DNA from: a virus
IMG/VR virus record: IMGVR_UViG_3300031974_001518
Span: 1-52,081 of that record
Length of the DNA: 52,081 nt
Strand: one strand, 5' to 3'
Shown: positions 178 through 51,984 of the stretch, in pieces
Position numbering within the stretch: position 1 is the stretch's first letter
Layout: the number at the start of each line of letters is the position of its first letter
The notes under the pieces: model-generated
What the model was told of the DNA's origin: nothing
The model's input: the letters and a program-made list of their open reading frames with translations, nothing else
Database searches by the model: none
Position numbers and translations under genes: made by a program

Positions 178-268
178 GATATGGCATATTTACCACTCAG
201 CACAGCCAACCTACCTGATCCGGTGATTGATCCTGCACAGGGCGAGAGTCCTGAAGATTACTTTGGGA
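178..268 (+). repeat. Terminal-overlap direct repeat, left copy
   Basis: These 91 bases are identical to 51991-52081, the last bases of the window. They cover the start of the 369-aa fibre gene. Upstream of the repeat the two copies are similar for about 50 bases and then diverge. The repeat indicates a circular assembly, or a circularly permuted or terminally redundant genome, with two alternative left arms. Confidence 0.95.
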
Positions 269-1290
269 CACTGTTGTGGACAGGCGATGGCACATCAAAT
301 CAGTCGGTAACAGGTCTCGATTTCCAACCTGAGTTTTTATGGACAAAAGCAAGAAACACTTCATTTGGAGGAGCTATTTTTGATTCAGTTAGAGGCTCTA
401 ACGCTACGTTATTTTTAGACACGAACAAAGAAATAACGACTGATGCTAACTGGAACACAATGACGTTTCAGAGTGGAGGTATAAACACTGGCTCTGGTGT
501 TGGGCTTAATAATAACGCCACCAACTTTGTAGGGTGGAGTTGGCTTGCAAATGGTTCGGCTGTTAGCAACACAGATGGAACCACAACAGGCGCAGTCACG
601 GTTAGTGCAAATCAAAAAGCAGGATTTAGCATTGTCAAATACGTTGGGCAACATTCAACAGGTGGTGCTTGCACAATTGGTCACGGCCTCAATGCTGTTC
701 CTCAAATGGTTATAGCCAAAGATTTAGATGTAAATAATGACTGGGTTGTTTACCACTCAGGCTATGGCGCAGGACAATTTGGCAAATTGACAAATAATAA
801 CAATACTGGATTCACTGCAAGTACCACTGTTTGGAATAACACAGCGCCAACAGCGGATGTTTTTAGTGTTGGTACAGCAAACTTAGCCAACAATAATGGG
901 TCTGATTATGTAGCATATGCATTTGCTGACGTAGACGGATATAGTAAATTTGGAACTTTTGTCGGCAATCAATCAACTGACGGCCCTTTTGTATATTGTG
1001 GCTTTCGGCCCGCTTTCCTGATGACGTTTTTGGCTTCAAGCGGATCACTGCATCTTTGGTTTCAGTATGACAGCGCACGTGAGCCTTTTAATCCAAATGA
1101 CACTGAACTATATACAAGTGGACAGTCTGGATCAGATCAAGAAACAGCCAATAGCACCGCAGTGGCTCATGATTTTTTGTCTAATGGGTTTAAGTTAAGG
1201 ACAGACAATAGTGCTAGAAATCAGTCAGGCGGTACATATGTATTTATGGCATTTGCCGAAAACCCATTCAAGTATTCAAATGCGAGGTAA
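181..1290 (+). CDS. Putative tail fibre/receptor-binding protein (DUF7483-like)
   Basis: The 369-aa protein is rich in Gly, Asn, Ser and Thr, with the look of a beta-structured fibre. Its order of motifs (LLWTGDGTSNQSVTGLDFQPEFLW, then GWSW, then AGFSIVKYVG, then ending FMAFAENPFKYSNAR) matches the central part (about residues 230-595) of the 806-aa fibre protein at 49564, so the two are paralogues. I recognise the pattern as the DUF7483 family common in marine phage fibres. It probably forms part of the tail-tip receptor-binding apparatus. The gene lies directly downstream of a SPRY-ended fibre gene and 6 bases before a tail-chaperone-like gene. Base composition is more A+T-rich than the core genes, as is usual for exchanged fibre genes. 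The ATG at 181 is inside the 91-base terminal repeat. The family assignment is from memory of the motif pattern. Confidence 0.7.
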   Translation: MAYLPLSTANLPDPVIDPAQGESPEDYFGTLLWTGDGTSNQSVTGLDFQPEFLWTKARNTSFGGAIFDSVRGSNATLFLDTNKEITTDANWNTMTFQSGGINTGSGVGLNNNATNFVGWSWLANGSAVSNTDGTTTGAVTVSANQKAGFSIVKYVGQHSTGGACTIGHGLNAVPQMVIAKDLDVNNDWVVYHSGYGAGQFGKLTNNNNTGFTASTTVWNNTAPTADVFSVGTANLANNNGSDYVAYAFADVDGYSKFGTFVGNQSTDGPFVYCGFRPAFLMTFLASSGSLHLWFQYDSAREPFNPNDTELYTSGQSGSDQETANSTAVAHDFLSNGFKLRTDNSARNQSGGTYVFMAFAENPFKYSNAR

Positions 1291-30826: not shown

Positions 30827-31261
30827 ATGAAAACATTTGACGAATTCAAGACCGACCTCGGCACACTACGCACCGACCTAAACGCGACAACCTACCGCGT
30901 CGAAAAGGTGCAGGAGCTTCTCAGCGACCTAGTTGAGAAACTGGACGGGATCTATGACCAGTCAGTATCGAACAAGGATCAGGCCGTTGACCTTGTCCGC
31001 GCTGTCGATACAGTCAAACCACGTCAACAGGATCGCCGCCTGTTTGCGAGCCATTACCGGATGCTCGCCATTCTGAACGAATATGGCGCGATGCATCGTG
31101 AGCACGTTGCCGCATTGCTTGGGGTCAAGGATCTCACCGTCCAACAAATGCTCCACGTTTGCCGGCATCACGGACTCGCCCAGTTGAAAACGCGGCGCGG
31201 TGTTGTTAGTCTTCAATCACTGGCCGATGGGGTCAGCAATAACTCAAACTTCAAAATCTAA
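30827..31261 (+). CDS. Coiled-coil plus winged-helix-like protein
   Basis: 144 aa. Residues 1-45 form a helix with heptad pattern (LRTDLNATTYRVEKVQELLSDLVEKLDG), a probable dimerisation coil. Residues about 75-130 look like a winged helix: HYRMLAILNEYGAMHREHVAALLGVKDLTVQQMLHVCRHHGL, then KTRRGVVSL as the wing. This is a good candidate for the regulator that binds the CTTACCRT repeats flanking its module. The regulatory role is inferred, not shown. Confidence 0.6.
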   Translation: MKTFDEFKTDLGTLRTDLNATTYRVEKVQELLSDLVEKLDGIYDQSVSNKDQAVDLVRAVDTVKPRQQDRRLFASHYRMLAILNEYGAMHREHVAALLGVKDLTVQQMLHVCRHHGLAQLKTRRGVVSLQSLADGVSNNSNFKI

Positions 31262-31271
31262 GGGGAACCCT

Positions 31272-31484
31272 ATGAAAACCGAAACAACCTTGAACTTCAC
31301 AGCCGAGCAACTCAACGAACTGAAGCGCATTGTCGATACCGTTGGATGGTCAACGCGCGACGAAAAGACCGGCCATATTGATACTTATGTGTCAGAGAAC
31401 CGCGTCAAATTCGCGAAGGATCTTGCCGGTGTTCTTGGCCGTATGGATACAGCCGCAATCGTTGGGACATCCGAAGGTCTTTAG
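31272..31484 (+). CDS. Small hypothetical protein, end of right-early module
   Basis: 70 aa from ATG at 31272 (AGGGGA upstream). An in-frame ATG 24 codons earlier lies inside the previous gene. Helical (TAEQLNELKRIVDTVGWSTRD; RVKFAKDLAGVLGRMD). A strong terminator begins 23 bases after the stop. Function unknown. Confidence 0.6.
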   Translation: MKTETTLNFTAEQLNELKRIVDTVGWSTRDEKTGHIDTYVSENRVKFAKDLAGVLGRMDTAAIVGTSEGL

Positions 31485-31506
31485 GCCTACCTTTCCCTCA
31501 TCTTTG

Positions 31507-31531
31507 CCCCGCTCAATGCGGGGTTTTTTTT
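31507..31531 (+). terminator. Rho-independent terminator of the right-early module
   Basis: CCCCGC-TCAAT-GCGGGG followed by eight T. It closes the DUF932 to 70-aa gene transcript and separates it from the late genes. Confidence 0.92.
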
Positions 31532-31622
31532 GTCCCCACGACAGCCTACCTTTGGGGCTTCCCCCGTACTCCCGCCGGTACACCCAGAAAAATACCTAAG
31601 GTCTTGATTCTACTGGCCGTGG

Positions 31623-31681
31623 GGATATTTCGGGGTGTCGGGGGATTTCTAGGGAACCGCCCCGACATTTCGCCGAAATCC
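31623..31681. repeat. Long imperfect hairpin
   Basis: Left arm 31623-31643 pairs with right arm 31660-31681. The outer stem is GGATATTTCGG with CCGAAATCC (one bulged base) and the inner stem is GTGTCGGGG with CCCCGACAT, giving about 18 pairs around a 16-base loop. Repeat copy 5 starts one base after it. Confidence 0.75.
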
Positions 31682-31682
31682 T

Positions 31683-31696
31683 AAATTCTTACCATC
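31683..31696 (+). repeat. A-tract/CTTACCATC repeat, copy 5
   Basis: AAATTCTTACCATC, a shorter A-tract than the other copies, directly after the long hairpin. Confidence 0.65.
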
Positions 31697-31937
31697 GGTG
31701 TTAAACAGACGGGTGCGCCGGACGCGATAAGGGAGGGGAAACCGGCACGGTAAACCTACGGATAGGCCGGCGGGAGTTTCGACAGGCTCGGTGAGGTTTA
31801 CTATCTGGATGATAAGAAGAAAAAAATCAATAACTTAGGGGTAGGCAAGGGTCACTGGGGGTACCCGTACTAGTGCTAGCAATCTCCCCATATTTTTTAT
31901 GGTTTTAGAAAGGGGTGTTTCACGCCAATGTTTCACA

Positions 31938-31956
31938 CGACGGCTTACCGTTGGGG
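31938..31956 (+). repeat. 19-bp inverted repeat, right copy (CTTACCRT element)
   Basis: CGACGGCTTACCGTTGGGG, 18 of 19 positions identical to the - strand at 27395-27413. A partial, internally rearranged copy follows at 31979-32000. Confidence 0.8.
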
Positions 31957-32016
31957 GCCCCAGTAGCCCCAGAGGCCCCGACGGCTTGCCCAATGGTAAC
32001 CAGACAGGCAAAAAGA

Positions 32017-32048
32017 AGCCCCGACAGCAAGGGGATACTGTCAGGGCT
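32017..32048. repeat. Hairpin AGCCCCGACAG / CTGTCAGGGCT
   Basis: Two 11-base arms with one mismatch around a 10-base loop, not followed by a T-run, so it is not a terminator. Confidence 0.7.
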
Positions 32049-32183
32049 ATGGGGCGGGTGGTAAGCGGGGGTAGTGTGAGGGGTTTACCCCGGTGGGCTT
32101 ACAATCCCATTGTACTGCTCAGATTCGCATCCGTCAATACCTACGGAAAATATATTTTTTTTCTCTTAAATTACATGTTCTTG

Positions 32184-32213
32184 TTGACAGAATTAACTAA
32201 CGGTATCCATAAT
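32184..32213 (+). promoter_or_regulatory. Sigma70-like promoter for the packaging/head operon
   Basis: TTGACA (perfect), 18-base spacer, CATAAT (5 of 6), about 170 bases upstream of the small terminase gene, with A+T-rich sequence upstream. It would give a long 5' leader. It is the best promoter match of the window. Confidence 0.7.
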
Positions 32214-32383
32214 GAACCTGTACCGGGGCCGAAATGGCAGGGGAAATCAACTTTTATAGTCCAAGTGAACCAAAGTTCCGAGACCACGGGCCCCCATGTA
32301 CACCCTTTATTCCCTTTTATGCGCGTAAAAAGATACGATAATTACTTTTTTCGTACATATCTAGCACATATGCGTGGTAATCC

Positions 32384-32788
32384 ATGAACCTCCTCCCCCA
32401 GCAACGGAAGAAACGTGAACTCTCCGACCAACAGCAAGCTTTCCTCACCGCACTCTTCGAGAACGGCGGTAACTTCTCGAGAGCTTGCGAGGTGTCGGGT
32501 TACGCGCAAGGTTCCATCGGCCACCTCAAAGAGTCTTTGGCTGACGAGATTATCGAAGGAGCACGGAATATTCTTGCAGGTGGAGCTCTCAAGGCCGCGA
32601 ACAAGCTTGTACGGACCATCGACGCGCCGGAAATCGAGCGTGGAGATAACATACGGCTCCAAGCCGCCGAGTCTCTCCTCAATCGAGTGGGTCTCGGGAA
32701 GCAAGAAACTCATAATGTCAACGTCCAAGCTGTACATGGGGTGGTACTACTCCCCCCGAAGAAAGAGATGGTTGTAGACACCCAGTAG
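32384..32788 (+). CDS. terS: Terminase small subunit
   Basis: 134 aa. The N-terminal half contains a helix-turn-helix (LSDQQQAFLTALFENGGNFSRACEVSGYAQGSIGHL) typical of small terminases, which recognise phage DNA to start packaging. The central helix (KAANKLVRTIDAPEIERGDNIRLQAAESLLNRVGL) is the usual oligomerisation segment, ending with the LLNRVGL signature often seen in this family. It lies 3 bases before the large subunit and just after the structured noncoding region that could be its binding site. Confidence 0.85.
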   Translation: MNLLPQQRKKRELSDQQQAFLTALFENGGNFSRACEVSGYAQGSIGHLKESLADEIIEGARNILAGGALKAANKLVRTIDAPEIERGDNIRLQAAESLLNRVGLGKQETHNVNVQAVHGVVLLPPKKEMVVDTQ

Positions 32789-32791
32789 TTT

Positions 32792-34495
32792 ATGTCGGAT
32801 ACACCCGAAGAGACAGTCCCGAAGAAACGTGGACGCCCAAAAAAAGACCCGAATGCACCCAAAAGCCGTTATAACCTCTCGACGGCTGAAAAAGCCCGTC
32901 GGGCAACACAGGCGAGTATCCGACGGTCCAAAAAAGAGGCGGAAAGGAAGAAAGCGGCCGCCGAGAAGCAAAATCAGAGAGCAAATCAACGAATTAGAGC
33001 CGCCTCGAAGGTAGAAACAGCCCTCCAAGGCGAAAAGTCACGTGTAATCGACCAAGGAGACGTGAATGCACTACCTAAAGCTGTTCAAGATCTCGTTGGC
33101 GAATCTGAGGTTGTCTTTAAAGCGAACGAAGGACCTCAGGAAGACTTTCTCAGTGCCCCTGAACAGGATGTTCTATACGGTGGGGCGGCCGGAGGCGGAA
33201 AGAGTTTCGCTCTTCTTGCTGATCCTCTCCGCTATTGTCATAACCCAAATCACCGCGGGCTTCTTTTACGCCGTACTCTCGATGAATTGACTGAACTCAT
33301 ATCGAAGTCGAGACAATTGTATCCCAAAGCGTTTCCCGGTGCCGTATTCCGTGAAAGTAAGTCGACGTGGGTCTTCCCCTCTGGGGCTACTATATGGTTT
33401 TCCTACCTCGATAAAGATAAAGACGTAACACGATACCAAGGGCAAGCATTTAACTGGATCGCCATCGATGAAATTACCCAGTACCCCACCTCCTATGTCT
33501 GGGACTATCTACGGTCACGTCTTCGTTCAACAGACCCCGAGCTCTCTCAAAATCTCTCCATGCGTTGTACGGCAAACCCCGGCGGAGTTGGAGGATGGTG
33601 GGTCAAAAAGATGTACATCGATCAGGGAGACCCCGGTAAGCCTTTCGTTCCCACCGATCTGGAGTCAGGAAAGGCATACGTATACCCTGAGGGACATGAG
33701 AAGGCAGGCAAGCCGCTCTATTGGCGAAAATTTGTACCGGCCCGCCTCACCGACAATCCATACCTCATGCGGGACGGACAGTACGAAGCAATGCTCCTTT
33801 CCTTACCAGAGGTGGAGCGTAAACGCTTGCTCGAAGGAGATTGGGATGTCGCCGAAGGTTGTGCATTCCCCGAGTTCCATAAGTCCAAGCACGTTGTCGA
33901 TCCTTACGATTTACCCACCAACTGGCCGAGAATCAGAGCGGCCGACTACGGCTACGCAAGCCCTTCGTGCATACTCTGGGGTGCAATCGATTGGGACAAC
34001 AACATATGGGTCTATCGAGAACTTTACGTAAAACACTTTACAGCGGAGCAATTGGCCGCTAAAATATTGGAGTTAGAGGAGTATGATCCCCAGATGCACT
34101 ACGCAGTGCTGGACTCCTCCTGCTGGAACCGTGTAGGTTACGGCCCTTCCATCGCTGAGACGATGATACGGATGGGATGTCGTTGGACACCCTCAGATCG
34201 TAACAGAATATCAGGCAAGATGGAAATCCACCGACGACTCGGGGATAACGAGTTCACCGGAGAGCCTACAGTTAAGTTCTTCAACACGTGCACAAATATA
34301 ATAAAACAACTCGCTGGAATCCCACTATCTAAAACAAATTCTGAGGACGTAGACACGAAGGCTGAAGACCACGCCTATGACGCGCTACGTTATATGTTGA
34401 TGACACGAACCTCAGGTTACGTCTCTATCCACAAAACACTCAACGACATCAAGAATAGCACGTTCCAGCCACAGGATTCAACCTTCGGATATTAA
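32792..34495 (+). CDS. terL: Terminase large subunit (packaging ATPase/nuclease)
   Basis: 567 aa. An unusual basic, charged extension (about residues 8-75, KKRGRPKKDP then Arg/Lys/Ala-rich) precedes the motor. Walker A is GGAAGGGKS (130-138), Walker B with catalytic Glu is WIAIDEIT (Asp226, Glu227). RNase H-like nuclease acidic residues are Asp385 (AADYGY), Asp441 (VLDSSCWN) and Asp530 (HAYDALRY). It drives DNA into the prohead and cuts concatemers. The KKRGRPKK motif looks like an AT-hook and may bind DNA. Classic order terS-terL. Confidence 0.95.
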   Translation: MSDTPEETVPKKRGRPKKDPNAPKSRYNLSTAEKARRATQASIRRSKKEAERKKAAAEKQNQRANQRIRAASKVETALQGEKSRVIDQGDVNALPKAVQDLVGESEVVFKANEGPQEDFLSAPEQDVLYGGAAGGGKSFALLADPLRYCHNPNHRGLLLRRTLDELTELISKSRQLYPKAFPGAVFRESKSTWVFPSGATIWFSYLDKDKDVTRYQGQAFNWIAIDEITQYPTSYVWDYLRSRLRSTDPELSQNLSMRCTANPGGVGGWWVKKMYIDQGDPGKPFVPTDLESGKAYVYPEGHEKAGKPLYWRKFVPARLTDNPYLMRDGQYEAMLLSLPEVERKRLLEGDWDVAEGCAFPEFHKSKHVVDPYDLPTNWPRIRAADYGYASPSCILWGAIDWDNNIWVYRELYVKHFTAEQLAAKILELEEYDPQMHYAVLDSSCWNRVGYGPSIAETMIRMGCRWTPSDRNRISGKMEIHRRLGDNEFTGEPTVKFFNTCTNIIKQLAGIPLSKTNSEDVDTKAEDHAYDALRYMLMTRTSGYVSIHKTLNDIKNSTFQPQDSTFGY

Positions 34496-34497
34496 GA

Positions 34498-36111
34498 ATG
34501 GCAGAATTTGACCCGAATACAGTCACAGTAGGCGAACTAGCGAAGATCTACTCGGAAGAGCAGGAGCTTGTTAACCCATTAAACTTGGGCACTATCCTGA
34601 AAGAGTACAAAGATCAGCCTGCTTTGGCTTTTTTTGCAGAAGAAGAAGGTCAGCTTTCTCTAGCTCGTCAGGCGATAAAAGACGCTCAAGGGACTGCTAC
34701 TGAAAACGCCGTAAAGGGTGCGCTAAAGAACATGCGCTACCTGAGTAATCGTCTGTACAATGCATATGATAGAAATCCTCCACCTTTCCTTATCTCCAAC
34801 GAAAAGAACACACCGAAGATAGCTCAAGAGTTTTTTGGTGTCAAAGAGCCGCCAAAAGCTGTTTCGACGTTACAAGTAAACACAGATCCTGAAGTTCGTA
34901 AGCAGTACGTACAAGAACTCATGGACTACGCGGCGAATAACCCAGACAAGAAGCCCCACGTACGGGCGATTTTATTTGGACTAAATACCGGGTTCCGTCC
35001 TAATGCCAATATCGGTGTTACAACAGGACAATATATCCCTTCTAAAGGTGCGCTCTACATTCGTCCTGAAGTAACGGGAGCCAAAGGTAGACCTATCTCT
35101 GTTCCGCTTAATGATATTGCGGATTCGATGTTGCAACAACAACTCGCAGATTACAAGGACGCGATTTCATCTACTGGTAAAATTTGGGTAGATGCAGAAG
35201 GTAAGCCTTTAAAAACTTCCGATATTAACGCTGTTCTTGAAGAGATTAAAGTACCTAACCTAATTTACGATGAAAAGACAGGTGAATACTTCGACTCTTT
35301 TAAACCAAAGGATACTGATGGTACTAAATTCGGAATGTCTTTGTTCCGTAACTATCACACCGCGGTAGGTCGTAAGATCGGAATGAACGATCTCATTCTC
35401 GCCAAGCTACAAGGGCGGAGTACGAAAAGCTACGGTAAAGGCTCTACAGGTGAGTTGTCGACATATGACTCCAACTTCCCCGGTGATGTATCAGACTACG
35501 AGCGTGAGCAAGCCAACATGCTGACCGAAGAGTATGGTCCTGCTATTGAAACAGCAAAGAAGAATACCCGTAGCCTAGTCGACCCTACTTTCGACTTCGA
35601 CTGGGGTGGAGACTACGACACAGTCAAGACACGCATCACAGAGCGCACAGAAGGCTTTGGGAGCGACTATTTCAAACGAGAGGTAGTAGCCCCTTCCGAA
35701 ACGGCTACATCCGCTCCTAAGGCTCCTAAGGGGCTCACAGAGGAAGAGAAGGCCGGCGTTCTCAAAAGATTGACGGACTGGTCGAAGGGAGCTCTCGATA
35801 GCCCCACGACAAAAGCCATCGCTGGTATCGGTCTCACCGGTATGGGGATATCCGCCGCGCAAAGACTCGAAGCGGCAGAAGAACGTGTTTCGGCTGGTGA
35901 AGGCGAGATGCCTGCCTACCTCAAGGAAGGTGCACGGTTTGTTGCAGAAGAATTTACTCCTGCGGGGTTCGTTGAACCTGCGAAGGAAGTAATCGGTGCC
36001 GGTCTCAAAGCGGGGGCTGAAGCGGCACAGAAAGAAGCGGAAGAGAAGGGCATCTCCGGAGATATTGAAGCCCAGATCAGAAGCGTACTCGGAGTTCCCC
36101 CGCAGTTCTAA
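34498..36111 (+). CDS. Tyrosine-recombinase-like protein with degenerate active site
   Basis: 537 aa. Residues about 155-325 follow the tyrosine recombinase catalytic domain: LNTGFRPNANIGV with Arg167 (first Arg), a beta-hairpin with Lys196 (TGAKGRPISVPL), then SLFRNYHTAVGRKIG with Arg284 (second Arg) and LQGRS (box corresponding to LGHS). The His of HxxR is Ser281, and the LGH His is Arg307. Tyr312 or Tyr323 could be the nucleophile. The N-terminal 150 residues may be the core-binding domain. About 200 extra residues follow, with an Ala/Gly hydrophobic patch (IAGIGLTGMGISA) and charged helices. It sits 2 bases after terL and before the portal gene, in a head/packaging operon, not near an att site or repressor. 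It may act in concatemer processing, or be a repurposed structural protein. Confidence 0.6.
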   Translation: MAEFDPNTVTVGELAKIYSEEQELVNPLNLGTILKEYKDQPALAFFAEEEGQLSLARQAIKDAQGTATENAVKGALKNMRYLSNRLYNAYDRNPPPFLISNEKNTPKIAQEFFGVKEPPKAVSTLQVNTDPEVRKQYVQELMDYAANNPDKKPHVRAILFGLNTGFRPNANIGVTTGQYIPSKGALYIRPEVTGAKGRPISVPLNDIADSMLQQQLADYKDAISSTGKIWVDAEGKPLKTSDINAVLEEIKVPNLIYDEKTGEYFDSFKPKDTDGTKFGMSLFRNYHTAVGRKIGMNDLILAKLQGRSTKSYGKGSTGELSTYDSNFPGDVSDYEREQANMLTEEYGPAIETAKKNTRSLVDPTFDFDWGGDYDTVKTRITERTEGFGSDYFKREVVAPSETATSAPKAPKGLTEEEKAGVLKRLTDWSKGALDSPTTKAIAGIGLTGMGISAAQRLEAAEERVSAGEGEMPAYLKEGARFVAEEFTPAGFVEPAKEVIGAGLKAGAEAAQKEAEEKGISGDIEAQIRSVLGVPPQF

Positions 36112-36134
36112 AAACTTAGCTAAGGAATAATAAA

Positions 36135-36335
36135 ATGAAATACTCAGAAGCAGACATCATGAATGCTGATAAAAAAGGCATCGACTACAATTGTGGCGAA
36201 AACAACCTGTACCGTGAAAGTGCAGACTTCGACACAGTAGCAAAGACAGACGTATTGATCGAAAACGCACCTAAGTCAGGTAAGAGCGCACCTCTCGACT
36301 CTATGATCTTAAACTCAGATAAGCAACCTGTATAA
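36135..36335 (+). CDS. Small hypothetical protein before portal
   Basis: 66 aa with AAGGA before the ATG. Asp/Asn/Lys-rich and probably little structured (IMNADKKGIDYNCGENNLYRES), ending in SAPLDSMILNSDKQPV. No family recognised. The gene has tidy spacing (23 bases after, 12 before neighbours) in the head operon, so a virion or assembly role is possible. Confidence 0.55.
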   Translation: MKYSEADIMNADKKGIDYNCGENNLYRESADFDTVAKTDVLIENAPKSGKSAPLDSMILNSDKQPV

Positions 36336-36347
36336 AGGTAATTAAAT

Positions 36348-38432
36348 ATGTCTGACGGGTTTATCCAACCTGCGGATGATGGACAGGTACAAGTCCAGAA
36401 CGCCGCGGAGCAAATGCCGGGATTAGCTGGATTTATCCAGAACCGGTTCGAGGATTCTGAAAATGGACGCCGCACGTTCGAGCAACGGTGGCTCCAAGCA
36501 TACAAGAATTTCCGCGGCATTTATGATTCATCTACACAGTATCGTGATTCCGAACGCTCCAAAGTGTTTATTAAGATCACGAAAACTAAGGTCTTGGCGG
36601 CTTACGGCCAGATCATCGACATTCTCTTCGCGAATAAAAAGTTCCCGATTGTGGTGGAGTCTACTCCCGTACCTGAAGGAATCGCAGAGTTTGCAAAGAT
36701 GCCGAGTCCTGTGGATCAAGTGTTGGAAGACCCGTACGGATATCCGGGGGATGGGCGTGAGCTCGAACCCGGTGCTACCCGTCTCGGTCCCTACTCCGCC
36801 AGTGGTGCGGTAGAGGGCAAAGCCCGTATCGGCGAGCCACAGGTAGAGCCAGCGGCTGAGGCGGCCCGCATACTCGAGAAGGTCATCCATGACCAGTTGC
36901 TCGACACCAACGCAGTGAACGTATTGCGTAACTCTGTTTTTGAAGCGTCACTTCTCGGTACGGGTATCGTGAAAGGGCCTTTCAACTTCTACAAGCGTGT
37001 CCACAAGTGGGAGCGTGATGAGGAAGGAAGCAGGATGTACACCCCGGATGAGAAGGTGACTCCACGTATCGAGCACGTCTCTTGTTGGGATTTCCACCCT
37101 GACCCCTCCGCAACGAGTATCGATGACTGTGAGTACGCTATCCAGCGTCACCGCATGAATCGCCAGCAGTTGCGTAACCTAATGAGTTTACCGTACTTCG
37201 ACTCCGTCGCGATTGAGAATGCGATTGTGAAGGGGCCGAACTACGAAGACAAGTACTACGAAGACACTATCCGTGAGGATGATACCGAGCCGTACTACCA
37301 AGAGAATCGGTATGAGGTTCTCGAGTACTGGGGAATGCTCGACGCGAAGCTAGCCCGCGAGGTTGGCCTTGAGCTCCCTGAGAATATTAACGAATTAGAT
37401 CAGGTGCAGATCAATGCGTGGGTGTGTGGCACGGAAGTTCTCCGTTGTGTACTCAACCCATTCACACCTGCACGTATTCCATTCCACGCTTTCCCTTACG
37501 AAGTTAACCCTTACCAATTGTGGGGCGTCGGAGTTGCAGAAAACATGGAAGATGCACAGATGCTCATGAACGGGCACGTGCGTATGGCAATCGACAACTT
37601 GGCCCTCGCAGGCAATCTCGTATTCGACGTGGATGAGGCAAGCCTCGTTCCCGGCCAGAACTTCGATATATTCCCCGGTAAGGTTTTCCGGAGACAGTCT
37701 GGCGTCACAGGTACAGCGATCAACGGGCTCAAGTTCCCGAACACTGCCCCTGAGAATATCCAGATGTACCAGATTGCTCGCCAGTTGTCGGATGAAGAGA
37801 CAGGTATCCCGAGCATCATGCACGGACAGACCGGTGTATCAGGCACAGGCCGCACCTCCTCCGGTCTATCAATGTTGATGAATGCAGGAGCGCAGTCAGT
37901 CAAGACAGTGATTAAGAACATCGATGACTACATGTTGAAGCCCCTCGGGGAAGCGTACTTCCAGTGGAATATGCAATACAACGATGAGTCGCCGGATGTT
38001 GTTGGGGACCTCGAGATCAAGCCACGGGGCACTTCGGCTGTTATGCAGAAAGAAGTTCGCTCACAGCGTCTCACAACTCTTCTCCAGACTGTTGCAAATC
38101 CGATGCTCGCTCCGTTTGTCAAGTTACCAAACTTGGTTCGCGAGCTCGCTATCGCACAGGACATCGACCCCGACCAACTCGTGAATGATGTCAATGAAGC
38201 CCAGCTATACGCTGAAGTACTAAAAGGTATGCAGAATGTTCAACAAGGAACAGGCCCAGAAGGTGGCCCCGCTGGTCAACAACCCGCAGGCATGGGAAGC
38301 CCTGACGGCTTATCTGGCGGATCTCCACCAGTTGACGCTTCGGGGGTTGGTAACAGCACAATCGGAACGGGAAATGTTCCAGTTGCAGGGGAAGATGGCT
38401 TTACTGGACAGCCTCCAGAGCCTCAAGGATAA
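36348..38432 (+). CDS. Portal protein (head-tail connector)
   Basis: 694 aa, the right size for podovirus portals. It has a long helical and beta body with QIIDILFANKKFPIVV near residue 85, a YEVLEYWGMLDAKLA wing strand, and a central conserved-looking GVAENMEDAQMLMNGHVRMAIDNLALAGN that fits portal families. After about residue 615 it is a low-complexity Gly/Pro/Gln tail. The portal forms the dodecameric ring through which DNA is packaged and ejected. The 3' end is overlapped for 197 bases by a second gene in another frame, which explains the odd tail composition. Confidence 0.85.
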   Translation: MSDGFIQPADDGQVQVQNAAEQMPGLAGFIQNRFEDSENGRRTFEQRWLQAYKNFRGIYDSSTQYRDSERSKVFIKITKTKVLAAYGQIIDILFANKKFPIVVESTPVPEGIAEFAKMPSPVDQVLEDPYGYPGDGRELEPGATRLGPYSASGAVEGKARIGEPQVEPAAEAARILEKVIHDQLLDTNAVNVLRNSVFEASLLGTGIVKGPFNFYKRVHKWERDEEGSRMYTPDEKVTPRIEHVSCWDFHPDPSATSIDDCEYAIQRHRMNRQQLRNLMSLPYFDSVAIENAIVKGPNYEDKYYEDTIREDDTEPYYQENRYEVLEYWGMLDAKLAREVGLELPENINELDQVQINAWVCGTEVLRCVLNPFTPARIPFHAFPYEVNPYQLWGVGVAENMEDAQMLMNGHVRMAIDNLALAGNLVFDVDEASLVPGQNFDIFPGKVFRRQSGVTGTAINGLKFPNTAPENIQMYQIARQLSDEETGIPSIMHGQTGVSGTGRTSSGLSMLMNAGAQSVKTVIKNIDDYMLKPLGEAYFQWNMQYNDESPDVVGDLEIKPRGTSAVMQKEVRSQRLTTLLQTVANPMLAPFVKLPNLVRELAIAQDIDPDQLVNDVNEAQLYAEVLKGMQNVQQGTGPEGGPAGQQPAGMGSPDGLSGGSPPVDASGVGNSTIGTGNVPVAGEDGFTGQPPEPQG

Positions 38433-38463
38433 CCATAGGGCGGTGATCGACAATGGCGGTTAA
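38236..38463 (+). CDS. Out-of-frame gene overlapping the portal 3' end
   Basis: 75 aa, read +1 relative to the portal. The protein is well formed: QAWEALTAYLADLHQLTLRGLVTAQSEREMFQLQGKMALLDSLQSLKD is an amphipathic helical pair. It resembles the small helical proteins commonly encoded right after phage portal genes (AWexLxxYL...QGxxxxLxxLxxL pattern). It overlaps the portal by 197 bases and the next gene by 11. The portal's sequence in the overlap is only low-complexity Gly/Pro, so this frame is likely the older or the constrained one. Confidence 0.7.
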   Translation: MFNKEQAQKVAPLVNNPQAWEALTAYLADLHQLTLRGLVTAQSEREMFQLQGKMALLDSLQSLKDNHRAVIDNGG

Positions 38464-40435
38464 CTACGGTAGCGGCTACAACATCTACTCCTCGATTCGG
38501 AACAAGATCCGGTCGAAGAAGGCGTACAAGAAGTATTACGGTGAGATGTCCGCTCTCTACGGTGAGCAACAGGCGGCGGAGCAGGCCGAGGCTGGAATGG
38601 GGGAAGACCCTACTCCGGGTCCTATCAGTAGGTCTACGCTCGGTGACGAAATACCCGGACAGGGTGCTGTTTCTGGAGCAGGTCCAGCAGGACCGGGACT
38701 CCCCGGACAGTTTTCGAGTATGATCGGAGGGACGTTTGCCAGTGGCCCCGGTGGCGCGATGCAAATATCGGCCGACCAGATTGGAAACATAAGTAGTAGT
38801 GCAGAGCAAATGACGTCGGGCGAGTACGCTATTTCTCAGGCGACCCCCTACGGTATTGGCGCGGATATCGCCAAAGCAACAGGTTTTGAAACTGCCGGTA
38901 TACTCGCTGAGAACCTCGTCTCTTTAATGGACGTTTCTCCCTTCGGTATGATCAGCGGCTTCATGGCTGGTACAACAGTTAAGGGACCCTACGGAAAAGA
39001 CATGGCAGTACCGGGCGGAATCCTCGGTGCCGTTGCCGAAATGAACATCAAGAACCAGTTCGAGGTTGCGGAAAAAATCAAGGCCGGCGAACTCGGCTAC
39101 CACCAGATGCGGGTCAACGGGTCACTGGTTTCCATTGTTCCCCAAACACTATTCGGCAAGCAACTCGGGTACGCTGTTCTCGGTACGTACAATGGAACAA
39201 GTCAGCAAGCGATCAACCAATATGCTTCGATGCAAGGGCTCGACCCCCGCACCGTAGATCTCGGGGCGAGTTCCGGACGAGTGGAGGGGCAACCCCTCGA
39301 TGGTTTTATTCAAGGGGTTGGCGGATTTACGAATGACGGAATGTTTGCGTCCCCCCTTACGGGTGAAGTGACGAGTGTTGCGGACTTTGATATGGGGGGA
39401 ATCCGCTCCCAAGTCGGTCTCGTGAATTCAGTATACGGTCCCGAGAAAGCAATGAACGTCGTGAATGGTCTTACGGGGTTGAGCGACAGCACTCGGGGAA
39501 GCCTTGCGGAGGGTATCGCGAGCGGTTCGTTGACTGCAAACCAAGTCGTTGACAATGATGGTAATGTAGTCGGCTTCTCTACAATGACTGGTAATGTTGT
39601 CCGCTCTGCGGATGGTATCGTGACCAGTGCGGGAGGTCGCCCTGTTACATCAGGCACAGGCATTATTAGTATTGAACAGGTGGAGAGAGCACAGGAACAG
39701 GCAGAGGCGGATGCATCGGGTAGTGGCTTAGGAATGGGAGTCGGTAGATTGCCCGGATACTCAACAATTTCTGGAAGAACTGGCATGACCACAACGGGTG
39801 CCGGGGAAGGAGCTTCTGTTTCATCCGGTAGAGGTACCGATGCGGCTAACGTGGATTCAGGTAGAGGGGGCATGGGTCCTTCTTCATCAGGCCCGAGTTC
39901 TGCGTCTGCTAGCCCAAGCGACGCTCCGGGTACTCCATTCGCTGAAGGCGGTGTAGTAAATCCTGCTGAGCAAGTCCCTCCCGGCGAAGCACCCATTGCT
40001 ACAGAAGCAGGCTTTGTTAAGACAGAACCCGAGAACGTATCTCCAGCAGAAACTATCGCTGACGATCAAGCGTTAGAGGTTCCGGAAGGTACATTCGTGC
40101 TCAATGCGGCCGCTGTCGAGTTCATGGGATCGGCTGATGTTAAGAAGATGATCTTGGATGCGATGCAAGAGGCTGAGAAGCAAGGTATTGACATCAAGCA
40201 GGATAACGCTAAAATAGCTAAGGAGGACCTTGTATCTTTGGTAGTATCCAAGGGTGAAGTGATTATTCCTCCCCAGCTTGCCGAAATCATCGGTTATGAC
40301 CGCCTAAATAAGATTAACAATCGTGGTAAAGCTGAAGTTCAAAGACGTTCAGACGAAAAGGAGCAGATGAAAGAAGCCGCTCCTACACCCCCAATTTTAG
40401 CAAAATCAGGTGGATTTATCTCCAAGCCCTCCTGA
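38453..40435 (+). CDS. Large Gly/Ser-rich virion protein
   Basis: 660 aa. The N-terminus is basic (IRNKIRSKKAYKKYYG), then a Gly/Pro-rich linker, a structured middle (about 120-330) and a long Gly/Ser/Thr-rich region (about 400-510). The C-terminal part (about 535-625) has a domain seen in marine phage structural proteins: EVPEGTFVLNAAAVEFMGSADVKKMILDA, then VSLVVSKGEVIIPPQLAEIIGYDRLNKIN. Position between portal and scaffold suggests a head or internal protein. The precise role is unknown. Confidence 0.6.
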   Translation: MAVNYGSGYNIYSSIRNKIRSKKAYKKYYGEMSALYGEQQAAEQAEAGMGEDPTPGPISRSTLGDEIPGQGAVSGAGPAGPGLPGQFSSMIGGTFASGPGGAMQISADQIGNISSSAEQMTSGEYAISQATPYGIGADIAKATGFETAGILAENLVSLMDVSPFGMISGFMAGTTVKGPYGKDMAVPGGILGAVAEMNIKNQFEVAEKIKAGELGYHQMRVNGSLVSIVPQTLFGKQLGYAVLGTYNGTSQQAINQYASMQGLDPRTVDLGASSGRVEGQPLDGFIQGVGGFTNDGMFASPLTGEVTSVADFDMGGIRSQVGLVNSVYGPEKAMNVVNGLTGLSDSTRGSLAEGIASGSLTANQVVDNDGNVVGFSTMTGNVVRSADGIVTSAGGRPVTSGTGIISIEQVERAQEQAEADASGSGLGMGVGRLPGYSTISGRTGMTTTGAGEGASVSSGRGTDAANVDSGRGGMGPSSSGPSSASASPSDAPGTPFAEGGVVNPAEQVPPGEAPIATEAGFVKTEPENVSPAETIADDQALEVPEGTFVLNAAAVEFMGSADVKKMILDAMQEAEKQGIDIKQDNAKIAKEDLVSLVVSKGEVIIPPQLAEIIGYDRLNKINNRGKAEVQRRSDEKEQMKEAAPTPPILAKSGGFISKPS

Positions 40436-47971: not shown

Positions 47972-49564
47972 ATGGGACAAGGATATACTCGTAACGATAC
48001 GGCCAACAACATTGCTGATGGAAACATCATCAACGCATCGGATCTCGACGGAGAGTTTGATGCCATTCAGGCCGCGTTTAACGCATCAAACGGACACTCA
48101 CACGACGGCTCATCTGGGGAAGGCCCCGAGATCACCACAGCCGGTTTAGCAGATGATGCTGTTACTGCCGCAAAACTAGATGATACAGCCAGTTTCACGA
48201 TGGCAGGACTCACCGTATCTGGGGCGGTGTCTCTCAACGGTAGTACAACCATCGGTAACGCCGATACGGATACTGTCACAGTCACCGCAGATGTTGCCTC
48301 GAGTTTGATCCCGTCTGCTGATGCGACCCACGATCTCGGTGCGACAGGTTCGGAGTGGAACGACCTCTACATCACAGGTACTGCTAACATCGATGCCCTC
48401 GTTGCTGATACAGCGGACATCAACGCCGGATCTATCGATGGGGTAACCATCGGTACAAACTCCGCAGTTACGGATCTCCGCGTCGACAACCTCCAAATTG
48501 ACGGTAACACCATCTCGTCCACAGACACTGCTGGGGATATCACCCTCACACCTGATGGTACTGGTAATGTTAACCTCGATGCGGACACGGTCCGTGTAGG
48601 GGATTCAGGGGTTGACGCGACGGTTACGACAAATGGTGCCGGGGACATCATTATCAATACCAACGCAGGCTCTTCTTCAGGTTCGATTCGTATCTACGAC
48701 GGAGCAGATGGGGATATCAACCTCACCCCCAACGGCACAGGTTCCGTGGTTATCTCGAAGGCAGATATCAACGGTGGGGCTATCGATGCAACCAATATCG
48801 GTGCCGCGACTGCTGGTACGGGTAATTTCTCGACGCTGTCCATCGATGGTACTGCGATTACCTCCACAGCCACCGAACTCAACATCCTTGACGGTGCTAC
48901 TCTAGACGTAAACGAACTCAACATCCTTGACGGGGTAACTTCCACAACTGCGGAGTTAAACCTCGTTGATGGCTCAACTGCCGGTACCATCGTCAACAGC
49001 AAAGCGGTGGTTTACGGTGCGTCTGGTGAAGTCAATGCAACCACCCTTCAGGTTGGCGGTACAGCTATCACGGCAACTCCCGCAGAGATCAACCTCCTTG
49101 ATGGGGTTACGGCTACAACAGCAGAACTGAACTACGTCGATGGCGTTACTTCAGCGATCCAGACTCAGTTAGACGCAAAGGAAACGGCTGACGCTGATAT
49201 CGTCAAGAAGGACGAGAACAACACATTCACAGCCGCACAACGTGGATCAACCGACACAGATACAACCAACACTGGTGACATTACACTTGACTTTGATGCC
49301 AACCAGAACTTTGTCCTCACACTCACTGGCAATATCACGCTAAAAAATCCTTCTACTGAATCAGTCGGGCAGTCTGGATTCATCGTGTTTATTCAAGATG
49401 CTACTGGCAATCGCACAGTCTCGCTTGAGTCGGAGTACAAAACTGCGGGAGGCGTGGACTCAATCACCTTATCCACAGCGGCAAGTACAACTGATCTTGT
49501 TCCATATATCGTATCAGCGTCCGGTAGTATCTTACTTGGCGCACCACAACTGGCGTTTTCATAA
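47972..49564 (+). CDS. Tail fibre/spike protein with ELNILDG repeats
   Basis: 530 aa. The N-terminus (ADGNIINASDLDGEFDAIQAAFNASNGHSHDGSSGEG) matches the attachment domain of marine phage fibres. The long middle (residues about 60-300) has beta-helical TGTANIDALVADTADINAGSIDG-like repeats, and residues about 305-395 hold five short repeats of the type TAxELNxLDGVT. The C-terminus is beta-rich. It is likely a trimeric fibre bridging the nozzle to distal fibre tips, which are encoded next. Confidence 0.8.
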   Translation: MGQGYTRNDTANNIADGNIINASDLDGEFDAIQAAFNASNGHSHDGSSGEGPEITTAGLADDAVTAAKLDDTASFTMAGLTVSGAVSLNGSTTIGNADTDTVTVTADVASSLIPSADATHDLGATGSEWNDLYITGTANIDALVADTADINAGSIDGVTIGTNSAVTDLRVDNLQIDGNTISSTDTAGDITLTPDGTGNVNLDADTVRVGDSGVDATVTTNGAGDIIINTNAGSSSGSIRIYDGADGDINLTPNGTGSVVISKADINGGAIDATNIGAATAGTGNFSTLSIDGTAITSTATELNILDGATLDVNELNILDGVTSTTAELNLVDGSTAGTIVNSKAVVYGASGEVNATTLQVGGTAITATPAEINLLDGVTATTAELNYVDGVTSAIQTQLDAKETADADIVKKDENNTFTAAQRGSTDTDTTNTGDITLDFDANQNFVLTLTGNITLKNPSTESVGQSGFIVFIQDATGNRTVSLESEYKTAGGVDSITLSTAASTTDLVPYIVSASGSILLGAPQLAFS

Positions 49565-51984
49565 TGTTTGATAATAGTCAATTTTTCTCAGGCGGTGCGG
49601 CGGGCTTCTACGACTTCCCGCTAGAGCAGAGTCTACGGTTCAATGATGATGACAGTGCGTACCTAGAGTGGACTCCTGATAGCAATCCAACAACTGCGGG
49701 AGTATTTACGTTTAGTTTTTGGTTTAAGTTATCCAATCCGTCTAGTCCTGCGACAATTTTATACCCGTATACGGACAGCAATAATTTTGGGCAAGTAGCA
49801 CTTTCCTCAAACCAGTTAAGTGTTTACTCCGCTATTGGCGGAAGTGCAAAAGTCAATGTAAAAACAACTGCGGTACTGCGTGACTATTCGGCTTGGTATC
49901 ATGCAGTAATAAAATTCAATTCAACTTCAGGCAATGAAGAAATAAAGATATACCTAAACGGAGTAAATCAATCATTAACTACTACCACGGCAATGACAGC
50001 GCATACTCCAAAATATGCCGCCAACGGTGTGGATCATTATTTCGGAAGTAACTTTAATCAATCAGGACTATTCGACGGCTACCTAGCCGAAGTCAACTTC
50101 ATCGACGGCACAGCCCTAGACGCTGACTCATTCGGTGAACTCAAGAACGGTGTGTGGATTCCTAAAGACCCATCAGGACTGGCCTACGGTACGAATGGCT
50201 TTCGATTGAGTTTTGCAGACGATGCAGAGGTGGAGGCGTTTAATACTGTCTTGTATGAAGGCAACGGAGCTACAACAACAAGTACGCAAAGTGTTACTGG
50301 CGTTGGCTTTTCACCAGATTTAGTCTGGATTAAAAACAGAGATAACACTACGAGCAATTCTTTGTACGATACGATTCGTGGTGCAGACGTTACTTTAAGA
50401 ACCAACACAACTGATAAAGATTTTGATTACGGGAATACCTTATTGTCTTTTGACTCTGATGGTTTTACTGTTGGTAATTATTCACACGTTAATGGCAATG
50501 GATTAAGCCACGTTGCTTGGTGTTGGAAAGCAGGAGGCGCACCTACCGTTGACAACTCAGCAGGGGCGGGGAGTGTCCCAACAGCAGGTAGCGTCAAGAT
50601 TGATGGCGTTAACTCTACGTCTGCACTAGCGGGGACTATTTCTGCTACAAGACTTTCTGCTAGCACTACTTATGGTTTCTCTATCGTGAAGTGGTCAGGA
50701 AACCAAACTTCAGGCGCAACCGTTGGTCATGAGCTTGGGGCTTCTCCGTCTTTAATTATTACCAAATGTACTAGCCATGCGACAAGTTGGGTAGTTGGCA
50801 TAGGCGGTCTTTCTGGCTTTGGAGTTAATGATTATCTAACGCTTCAGACAACAGGTGCTAAAAATTCATCATCTACGTTTTATCAAGCATATGGTACAGA
50901 TACGTTTACCGTTGGAGTTTCTTCCGCTGATGAAATGAATAAGACAAGCAGAGATTATATTTCTTATGTCTGGGCTGAGAAGTCGGGGTATTCTAAGTTT
51001 GATAGCTATTCTGGAGCAACAGGCGAAATAACTGTTTACACAACAGATGATGGTACATCTAGCGGAACCAATCCATTTAAGCCCGCTTTTGTTCTACTCA
51101 AGCGTACTGACAGCGATCCGGGCGATGCGTACTGGGTTATATTTGATAACACTCGTGATGTTGAAGGCGATAATGGTAGGCATCTTTTTGCTAATTTAAC
51201 TGCCACCGAATCTGATAGCTCATCTCGTAAAATAACTTTTAATGATAATGGATTTACCATTCCTGCTTCTGCGTCAGCAGATGCTTCAGTTAACGCAGGA
51301 TCAGGCACATACATCTACGCCGCCTTTGCAGACACACGGGAAGCGGCCTTCTGGCTAGATCAGACAAGTAATGACAACGATTGGCAACCTGTCAACCTAG
51401 ACCATAACGATACGTTGGCTGATAGTCCGACGAATAACTTCTGCACCATGAATCCAATTGCTAAGTTTGGCACACCTAGTGCGTTTACGCTCGCTGACGG
51501 AAACCTAGACTTAACTTTTACATCTACTTCTGGCAACGATAGCGCAGTCGGAACAATGGGTCTTACATCTGGCAAGTGGTATCACGAAGTCACTCTTGTT
51601 TCTCATGCAGACGATTCAAATGCAGGGTTTACAACTGCCGAAGCACTAGCAACTGAAACAAACACAGATGGTGCGGCTTACTTTAAGTCAGTCGGATATC
51701 ATCGTGGAGATAGAGCAATTATCTGGGGTACGGAACCTAGCCCTACGCAACGCTTTACTACATTATCTGATGGTAGTGTTCTTGGCTTTGCTTTAGACCT
51801 TGATTCGACACCGCAAACTTTAAAGATTTATCTGAATGGCGGAGCAAGCCCCATCGTAGATGTAGAGCTACCAACAGACAAAGGAGATACTTGGATTCCC
51901 TGTTGTGGCGATGATGGTGGTGATGCAGGGCGATTTATATTCAATTTCGGCCAACAACCATTCAAGTACGATCCACCGGCATAA
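49564..51984 (+). CDS. Distal tail fibre with LamG, DUF7483-like and SPRY-like domains
   Basis: 806 aa. Residues about 20-215 are concanavalin-like (LamG type), ending VNFIDGTALDADSFGEL. Residues about 230-595 are paralogous to the 369-aa protein (VLYEGNGATTTSTQSVTGVGF... and YGFSIVKWSGN, ISYVWAEKSGYSKF). Residues about 600-806 are a SPRY-like end (ASGN...KWYHEVTL, VGYHRGDRAIIWG, VLGFALDLD, FNFGQQPFKYDPPA). All are sugar-binding-type folds. It starts on the fibre stop (TAATG). The gene is a patchwork: a more G+C-rich stretch (about 50080-50200) is set in A+T-rich flanks. Likely the host-range determinant. Confidence 0.8.
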   Translation: MFDNSQFFSGGAAGFYDFPLEQSLRFNDDDSAYLEWTPDSNPTTAGVFTFSFWFKLSNPSSPATILYPYTDSNNFGQVALSSNQLSVYSAIGGSAKVNVKTTAVLRDYSAWYHAVIKFNSTSGNEEIKIYLNGVNQSLTTTTAMTAHTPKYAANGVDHYFGSNFNQSGLFDGYLAEVNFIDGTALDADSFGELKNGVWIPKDPSGLAYGTNGFRLSFADDAEVEAFNTVLYEGNGATTTSTQSVTGVGFSPDLVWIKNRDNTTSNSLYDTIRGADVTLRTNTTDKDFDYGNTLLSFDSDGFTVGNYSHVNGNGLSHVAWCWKAGGAPTVDNSAGAGSVPTAGSVKIDGVNSTSALAGTISATRLSASTTYGFSIVKWSGNQTSGATVGHELGASPSLIITKCTSHATSWVVGIGGLSGFGVNDYLTLQTTGAKNSSSTFYQAYGTDTFTVGVSSADEMNKTSRDYISYVWAEKSGYSKFDSYSGATGEITVYTTDDGTSSGTNPFKPAFVLLKRTDSDPGDAYWVIFDNTRDVEGDNGRHLFANLTATESDSSSRKITFNDNGFTIPASASADASVNAGSGTYIYAAFADTREAAFWLDQTSNDNDWQPVNLDHNDTLADSPTNNFCTMNPIAKFGTPSAFTLADGNLDLTFTSTSGNDSAVGTMGLTSGKWYHEVTLVSHADDSNAGFTTAEALATETNTDGAAYFKSVGYHRGDRAIIWGTEPSPTQRFTTLSDGSVLGFALDLDSTPQTLKIYLNGGASPIVDVELPTDKGDTWIPCCGDDGGDAGRFIFNFGQQPFKYDPPA

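Follow-up and report, generated by a model that had tools for sequence, protein, structure and literature searches.

Tyrosine recombinases of the phage integrase superfamily (PF00589) include lambda Int, XerH, XerD, Tn1549 Int and Cre. The Cre/lox system of phage P1 is able to circularise incoming terminally redundant DNA, although to our knowledge Cre is not an ejected protein, and in temperate phages an integrase is known to be exchanged together with its attachment site. Ejected phage proteins include the internal proteins of T4, which are polymorphic and carry a capsid-targeting sequence. Among the HMO-2011-type phages, which are described as dominant and widespread in the ocean, some are temperate and encode a tyrosine integrase, as does CRP-3, which integrates, and integrases have been reported only upstream of the replication module (PMC9038755).

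Here we describe a locus from the same phage group. The window, by which we mean the whole 52,081-nt stretch analysed, encodes a large terminase subunit (TerL) and a portal whose nearest cultured matches are those of HMO-2011-type podoviruses of Roseobacter, Pelagibacter and SAR116 hosts, and we therefore assign it to the HMO-2011 group. Between these two genes lies a third, the slot gene (Table 1), whose product belongs to the same superfamily as the integrases of temperate HMO-2011-type phages, whereas its position is not upstream of the replication module. The slot family further departs from the superfamily in being extended C-terminally by about 200 to 800 aa and in showing extreme allelic variation. 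Our searches found no virion proteome from this clade and no literature on virion-carried tyrosine recombinases or on a recombinase locus between TerL and portal, and we know of no phage system in which the whole recombinase is replaced between near-identical phages; the location, extension and hypervariability of the slot recombinase are thus new with respect to the literature found.

Table 1. Positions of the slot gene, its parts and its neighbours in the window (aa numbering is that of the slot protein; counts refer to 46 family members)
Feature	Position	Strand	Basis or conservation
Putative sigma-70-like promoter, TTGACA-18 bp-CATAAT, upstream of TerS/TerL/slot/portal genes	32184–32213	+	Function predicted
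TerL, left flank of slot	32792–34495	+	PHROG 979, E 2e-59
Slot gene, tyrosine-recombinase-domain protein, 537 aa	34498–36111	+	ORF; PF00589, E 1.8e-5; PHROG 216, E 2e-6; fold match
N-terminal helical part, aa 1–125	34498–34872	+	Helices 11–22, 31–37, 42–46, 55–63, 69–88, 106–113
Catalytic domain, aa 134–325	34897–35472	+	PF00589 match, model, 46-relative alignment
Arg167, catalytic Arg I (TGFR box)	34996–34998	+	46/46
Lys196, catalytic Lys (beta2-beta3)	35083–35085	+	44/46
Ser281, His-II position	35338–35340	+	His in only 3/46
Arg284, catalytic Arg II	35347–35349	+	46/46
Arg307, His-III/Trp position (LQGRS)	35416–35418	+	Arg 23, His 22, Lys 1 of 46
Tyr323, likely nucleophile	35464–35466	+	46/46
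C-terminal extension, aa 326–537, Ala/Gly-rich helical, low-confidence	35473–36108	+	pLDDT; modules common to unlike alleles
Small ORF, 66 aa, between slot gene and portal	36135–36335	+	DNA kept across differing alleles
Portal, right flank of slot	36348–38432	+	PF23899 SU10_portal, E 3e-28; PHROG 332, E 1e-80

Sequence and predicted fold of the slot protein

By sequence and predicted fold, the slot protein is a divergent tyrosine recombinase. Searched against Pfam, it matches PF00589 over residues 134–251 (E 1.8e-5) at 25.0 bits, the curated cut-off being 27.1, while a profile search of the genome places the same domain at the same position with 27.3 bits, above that cut-off. PHROG integrase families are matched at E 2e-6 and 1.5e-4. 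A PDB search with the slot protein as a single sequence gave no meaningful match; a profile of 16 relatives retrieved the Int protein 6en0 (E 0.0012), which we take to be Tn1549 Int. The AlphaFold2 model has pLDDT values mostly of 70–96 over residues 1–330 and below 50 across most of 396–537. Its best 19 matches among PDB folds are all tyrosine recombinases, including lambda Int (E 7.7e-4, probability 1.00), archaeal Xer, XerD and XerH, with nothing else convincing. The fold of the L024 allele, which has no Pfam match, resembles XerH, lambda Int and Cre, and topoisomerases are absent among the PDB fold matches listed for either protein. The lambda Int match covers 345 alignment columns and reaches into the N-terminal part; from this span and the helices of the model, residues 1–125 are probably a core-DNA-binding domain, and the slot protein thus resembles the superfamily in its core-binding and catalytic layout as well as in its fold. 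The first-pass annotation had called this ORF tyrosine-recombinase-like, a claim that survived a search for the two things that would speak against it, namely lack of a fold match and loss of Arg and Tyr in relatives.

Active site and selection

The slot protein carries the Arg I, Lys, Arg II and Tyr signatures of the superfamily and lacks two others, having serine in place of the His-II of HxxR and arginine at the His-III/Trp position. We examined these positions in an alignment of 46 family members, with domain ends trimmed using an earlier alignment. The set excludes L117, near-duplicates and any slot protein that has no such domain, so the counts in Table 1 describe domain-bearing members only. 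The median pairwise identity of the catalytic domain in this set is 17%. All 46 members have a basic residue at the His-III position, and the canonical RII-HIII spacing of 23 is found in the window protein and in 31/46 members overall. The family thus differs from the superfamily in that His-II is mostly lost and His-III is often Arg, although L047 and L062 retain His at both positions. L117 has apparently lost the Tyr and looks degenerate.

Most of the residues picked out by the first-pass annotation fall where it placed them: Arg167, Lys196 and Arg284 are conserved in relatives, Ser281 does occupy the His-II position, and the LQGRS segment that it aligned with the LGHS box puts Arg307 at His-III/Trp. 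Of its two candidate nucleophiles, Tyr323 is invariant, while Tyr312 is not conserved. The loop around residues 311–323 of the active site is of low confidence in the model, and the assignment there therefore rests on the alignment.

Among accepted strand transferases, too, the His-II residue is variable, as in the type IB topoisomerases. Its loss could mean that activity is lowered or limited to nicking and rejoining. Because the catalytic residues are kept, the slot protein is probably a catalytically intact, working enzyme. For the recombinase part we obtained dN/dS values of 0.05 (window/L002), 0.04 (L016/L091) and 0.07 (L091/L049); TerL gave 0.10 (window/L002) and the C-terminal part 0.46 (L016/L091), all being rough values as synonymous sites are near saturation. 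With such low values, the recombinase part is under strong purifying selection rather than decaying.

Distribution of the slot family

Scanning IMG/VR by portal and TerL yielded about 150 loci in total. Among those with both flanks, the slot family is present in 40/40 (about 35 distinct after removal of duplicates) where TerL is at least 70% identical to that of the window. At 55–70% TerL identity, 13 loci have the slot family, 10 have another ORF and 7 have none, and below 55% no locus has it. The carriers are mostly marine phages. A set of 59 slot proteins forms a single BLAST-linked family; when the aligned slot proteins are searched individually, 17/60 match PF00589 and 26/60 match a PHROG integrase. 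A search of 21 relative records, several of them fragments, turned up no second tyrosine recombinase.

In cultured relatives, we found no tyrosine recombinase gene in the TerL-portal slot, which bears out the earlier remark that a packaging operon is an unusual place for one: the gap is without an annotated gene in HMO-2011 and contains small ORFs in HTVC115P (three) and HTVC033P (four). By tblastn, the window protein, L028 and L024 have no relatives in cultured phages, and the canonical-looking domain of L062 matches only generic phage integrases there, at 21–27%. The slot holds an SGNH hydrolase in Sinorhizobium phage phiM6 (L006:5222-6829) and an 849-aa unannotated protein in Rhizobium phage RHph_N3_19 (L007:3935-6484), from which we take the gap to be an accessory-gene site. 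Slot proteins of a second family, unrelated to the first and devoid of a recombinase domain, are encoded at L054:3720-5885, L126:11620-13035 and L129:8631-10358, and the first two of these proteins end in GGFVTL.

Hypervariability and allele exchange

Comparison with relatives, through which alone it becomes visible, reveals a hypervariable, modular slot locus, a new finding. Of the pairs with TerL at least 80% identical, 184/213 have catalytic domains less than 30% identical, with portals above 60%. Catalytic domains are 23% identical in L032/L099 (TerL 98%, portal 100%), 32% in L052/L062 (TerL 99%, portal 99%) and 24% in L043/L107 (TerL 99%, portal 96%), where some portal comparisons cover only the portion of the gene present on the contig. 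DNA homology ends within a few bases of the slot start codon and returns near the stop codon or within the C-terminal part. L042 and L117, for example, share 98% identity across the 5.8 kb that lead to the start codon and are unlike beyond it. C-terminal modules are swapped independently of the catalytic domain. L029 and L099 share 72% identity over 153 C-terminal residues, while their catalytic domains have no detectable similarity; with C-terminal modules common to different alleles, breakpoints must also lie inside the gene.

These exchange borders, together with purifying selection, indicate that variation arises when one allele is replaced entirely by another, each allele being itself strongly constrained. 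Homologous recombination in the conserved flanks suffices to explain the borders, and a special mechanism of mobility is not needed. Assembly chimeras are unlikely as a general cause, as several pairs match at 96–100% in both flanks.

C-terminal extension

The extra fused residues noted in the first-pass annotation, about 200 by its count, correspond to approximately 210 residues beyond the catalytic Tyr. Tails of the form GF[IVLM] end 14/65 slot proteins, 7/71 portal-downstream proteins and 4/343 other ORFs, counts that include related sequences; the window's own slot protein has no such tail. From the gene position and these recurring tails, the slot recombinase may be located in the virion.

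The portal-downstream protein (38453–40435 in the window) varies in length from 248 to more than 1100 aa among relatives, and in L115 it bears a cell-wall hydrolase domain. Portal-downstream and slot proteins have GGF[IV] tails in common.

Operon setting and upstream region

The slot gene starts 2 nt past the TerL stop codon, with the portal gene downstream. Both hexamers of the promoter upstream of TerS are invariant or nearly so across 5 relatives, and this conservation and the operon suggest that the slot recombinase is expressed late.

Upstream of TerS, positions 31480–32384 comprise about 900 bp without a convincing gene, parts of which are highly conserved among relatives; this stretch is a candidate for a role in packaging or regulation. 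TGTTTCAC occurs there as two direct copies (31916–31923 and 31929–31936), each matching one half of the bacterial parS palindrome; they are nearly invariant in five relatives and may be a regulator or packaging site. A hairpin, GCCCCGACAG/CTGTCAGGGC (32018–32047), preceded by an A-tract, is terminator-like on the − strand, with no − strand gene evident nearby; both of its arms are altered together in L010. Elsewhere, DUF7483 domains lie at both ends of the window (181–1290 and 49564–51984), possibly reflecting a duplication or related tail-fibre-like genes adjacent on a circular map.

Searches for a DNA target and for integration

The first-pass annotation had suggested that the protein might act on nearby inverted repeats. 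In our search of 31000–38500 and of non-coding stretches, no inverted repeat was found beside the slot gene, and the repeats in 31000–38500 resemble chance matches scattered over coding DNA, leaving this suggestion unsupported. In a search for attP beside the slot gene, where there is almost no non-coding DNA, neither inverted repeats nor tRNA signals exceeded chance expectation. In the window as a whole, the tRNA-end motif has 6 matches versus 7.4 expected, with no tRNA or tRNA-end signal above chance, and no lox-like site was found. Among the window's relatives, the stretch preceding TerS stays conserved even where the alleles differ. We also considered an upstream site that co-varies with the allele and rejected it for the 5.8 kb shared by L042 and L117, since this DNA is 98% identical though the slot genes differ (L117 being possibly degenerate). 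The target possibly lies outside the 5.8 kb upstream of the slot, in host or competitor DNA, or elsewhere on the phage genome.

A scan of 84,980 genomes, a sample of species searched with narrow portal patterns, returned no provirus with a slot recombinase. It gave two portal-bearing contigs. The slot protein on one of them has no recombinase domain, and the other contig has no slot protein. In 385 genomes of one class, a single further, distant portal was found (G073, a 6.5 Mb genome), with no slot relative nearby.

Discussion

The reading that best fits these observations, which we hold tentatively and at somewhat less than even confidence, is that of an active, late-expressed recombinase, probably delivered by the virion, with exchangeable specificity. 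The N-terminal two thirds would comprise the core-binding and catalytic domains that cut and rejoin DNA, using Tyr323 with Arg167, Lys196, Arg284 and the basic Arg307, while the C-terminal extension would probably place the protein in or at the virion, beside the portal. The recombinase would then enter the new cell with the DNA, its substrate being either the incoming genome or DNA that the cell already contains. As the recombinase module is swapped wholesale among phages, its DNA specificity presumably differs from phage to phage. Catalysis, virion location, delivery and change of specificity are all steps that we infer. Against this reading stand the loss of His-II, the failure of our searches to find a recombination site, the apparent loss of the Tyr in L117, and the phages with TerL at 55–70% identity, some of which are without the gene or have another protein in its place. 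A more specific version, possible but rather doubtful, is a polymorphic, virion-injected recombinase payload with a C-terminal targeting part that would act on host, competitor or own DNA, many specificities being kept by frequency-dependent selection. The T4 internal proteins offer an analogy only, in pairing a variable payload with a common terminal targeting part; their folds are different, and the targeting part of the putatively packaged slot protein would be C-terminal. P1 Cre is likewise a phage tyrosine recombinase, but it has no such extension or polymorphism.

The most serious rival, which we nonetheless consider unlikely, is that the phage's integrase has been relocated to the late region and that the alleles correspond to different host attachment sites. 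The slot recombinase is the sole tyrosine recombinase found in the records, and exchange of integrase with attachment site has precedent in temperate phages. Some HMO-2011-type phages are indeed temperate with a tyrosine integrase, but theirs is encoded upstream of the replication genes and not in a late operon (PMC9038755). Moreover, neither genome scan returned a provirus with the slot recombinase, the window has no tRNA or tRNA-end signal above chance, and nearly each phage has its own allele. A role in the producing cell during packaging, either in resolving concatemers or in relaxation by a type IB topoisomerase-like activity, would suit a gene encoded between TerL and portal, and an active site that keeps Arg, Lys, Arg, a basic residue and Tyr but has lost His-II is similar to that of type IB topoisomerases. 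We regard this role as quite unlikely, however, in that housekeeping on the phage's own DNA needs no different enzyme in phages 98% identical around the slot, the DNA upstream stays 98% identical in L042/L117 while the slot gene changes, sister groups package without a slot recombinase, and no topoisomerase is among the PDB fold matches listed.

Sharp exchange borders at the start and stop codons, and the occupation of the slot by unrelated genes in other phages, could also point to a selfish cassette whose recombinase uses its own activity to enter the slot. Homologous exchange in near-identical flanks accounts for the borders equally well, however, the shared C-terminal modules place breakpoints inside the gene too, and we identified no repeated border site, leaving such a cassette improbable. 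Least credible is that catalysis has been lost and that the protein now serves in a structural or DNA-binding capacity, a structural role having been among the suggestions of the first-pass annotation. The missing His-II, the Arg at His-III in the window protein and the degenerate look of L117 would agree with such a loss, yet Arg, Arg and Tyr are invariant at 17% identity, dN/dS in the recombinase part is 0.04–0.07, and both His residues are present in L047 and L062, making it very improbable.

When nearly identical phages keep the catalytic residues at a conserved locus yet exchange the entire enzyme, strong selection for a shifting DNA specificity is indicated, and the question of whether site-specific recombinases are delivered together with phage DNA becomes open to experiment. 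Genomes judged to be without lysogeny genes (PMC9038755) could still carry a divergent slot recombinase. With the slot family, a phage group that has been classed as lytic or temperate by whether recognisable integrases are present gains a recombinase.
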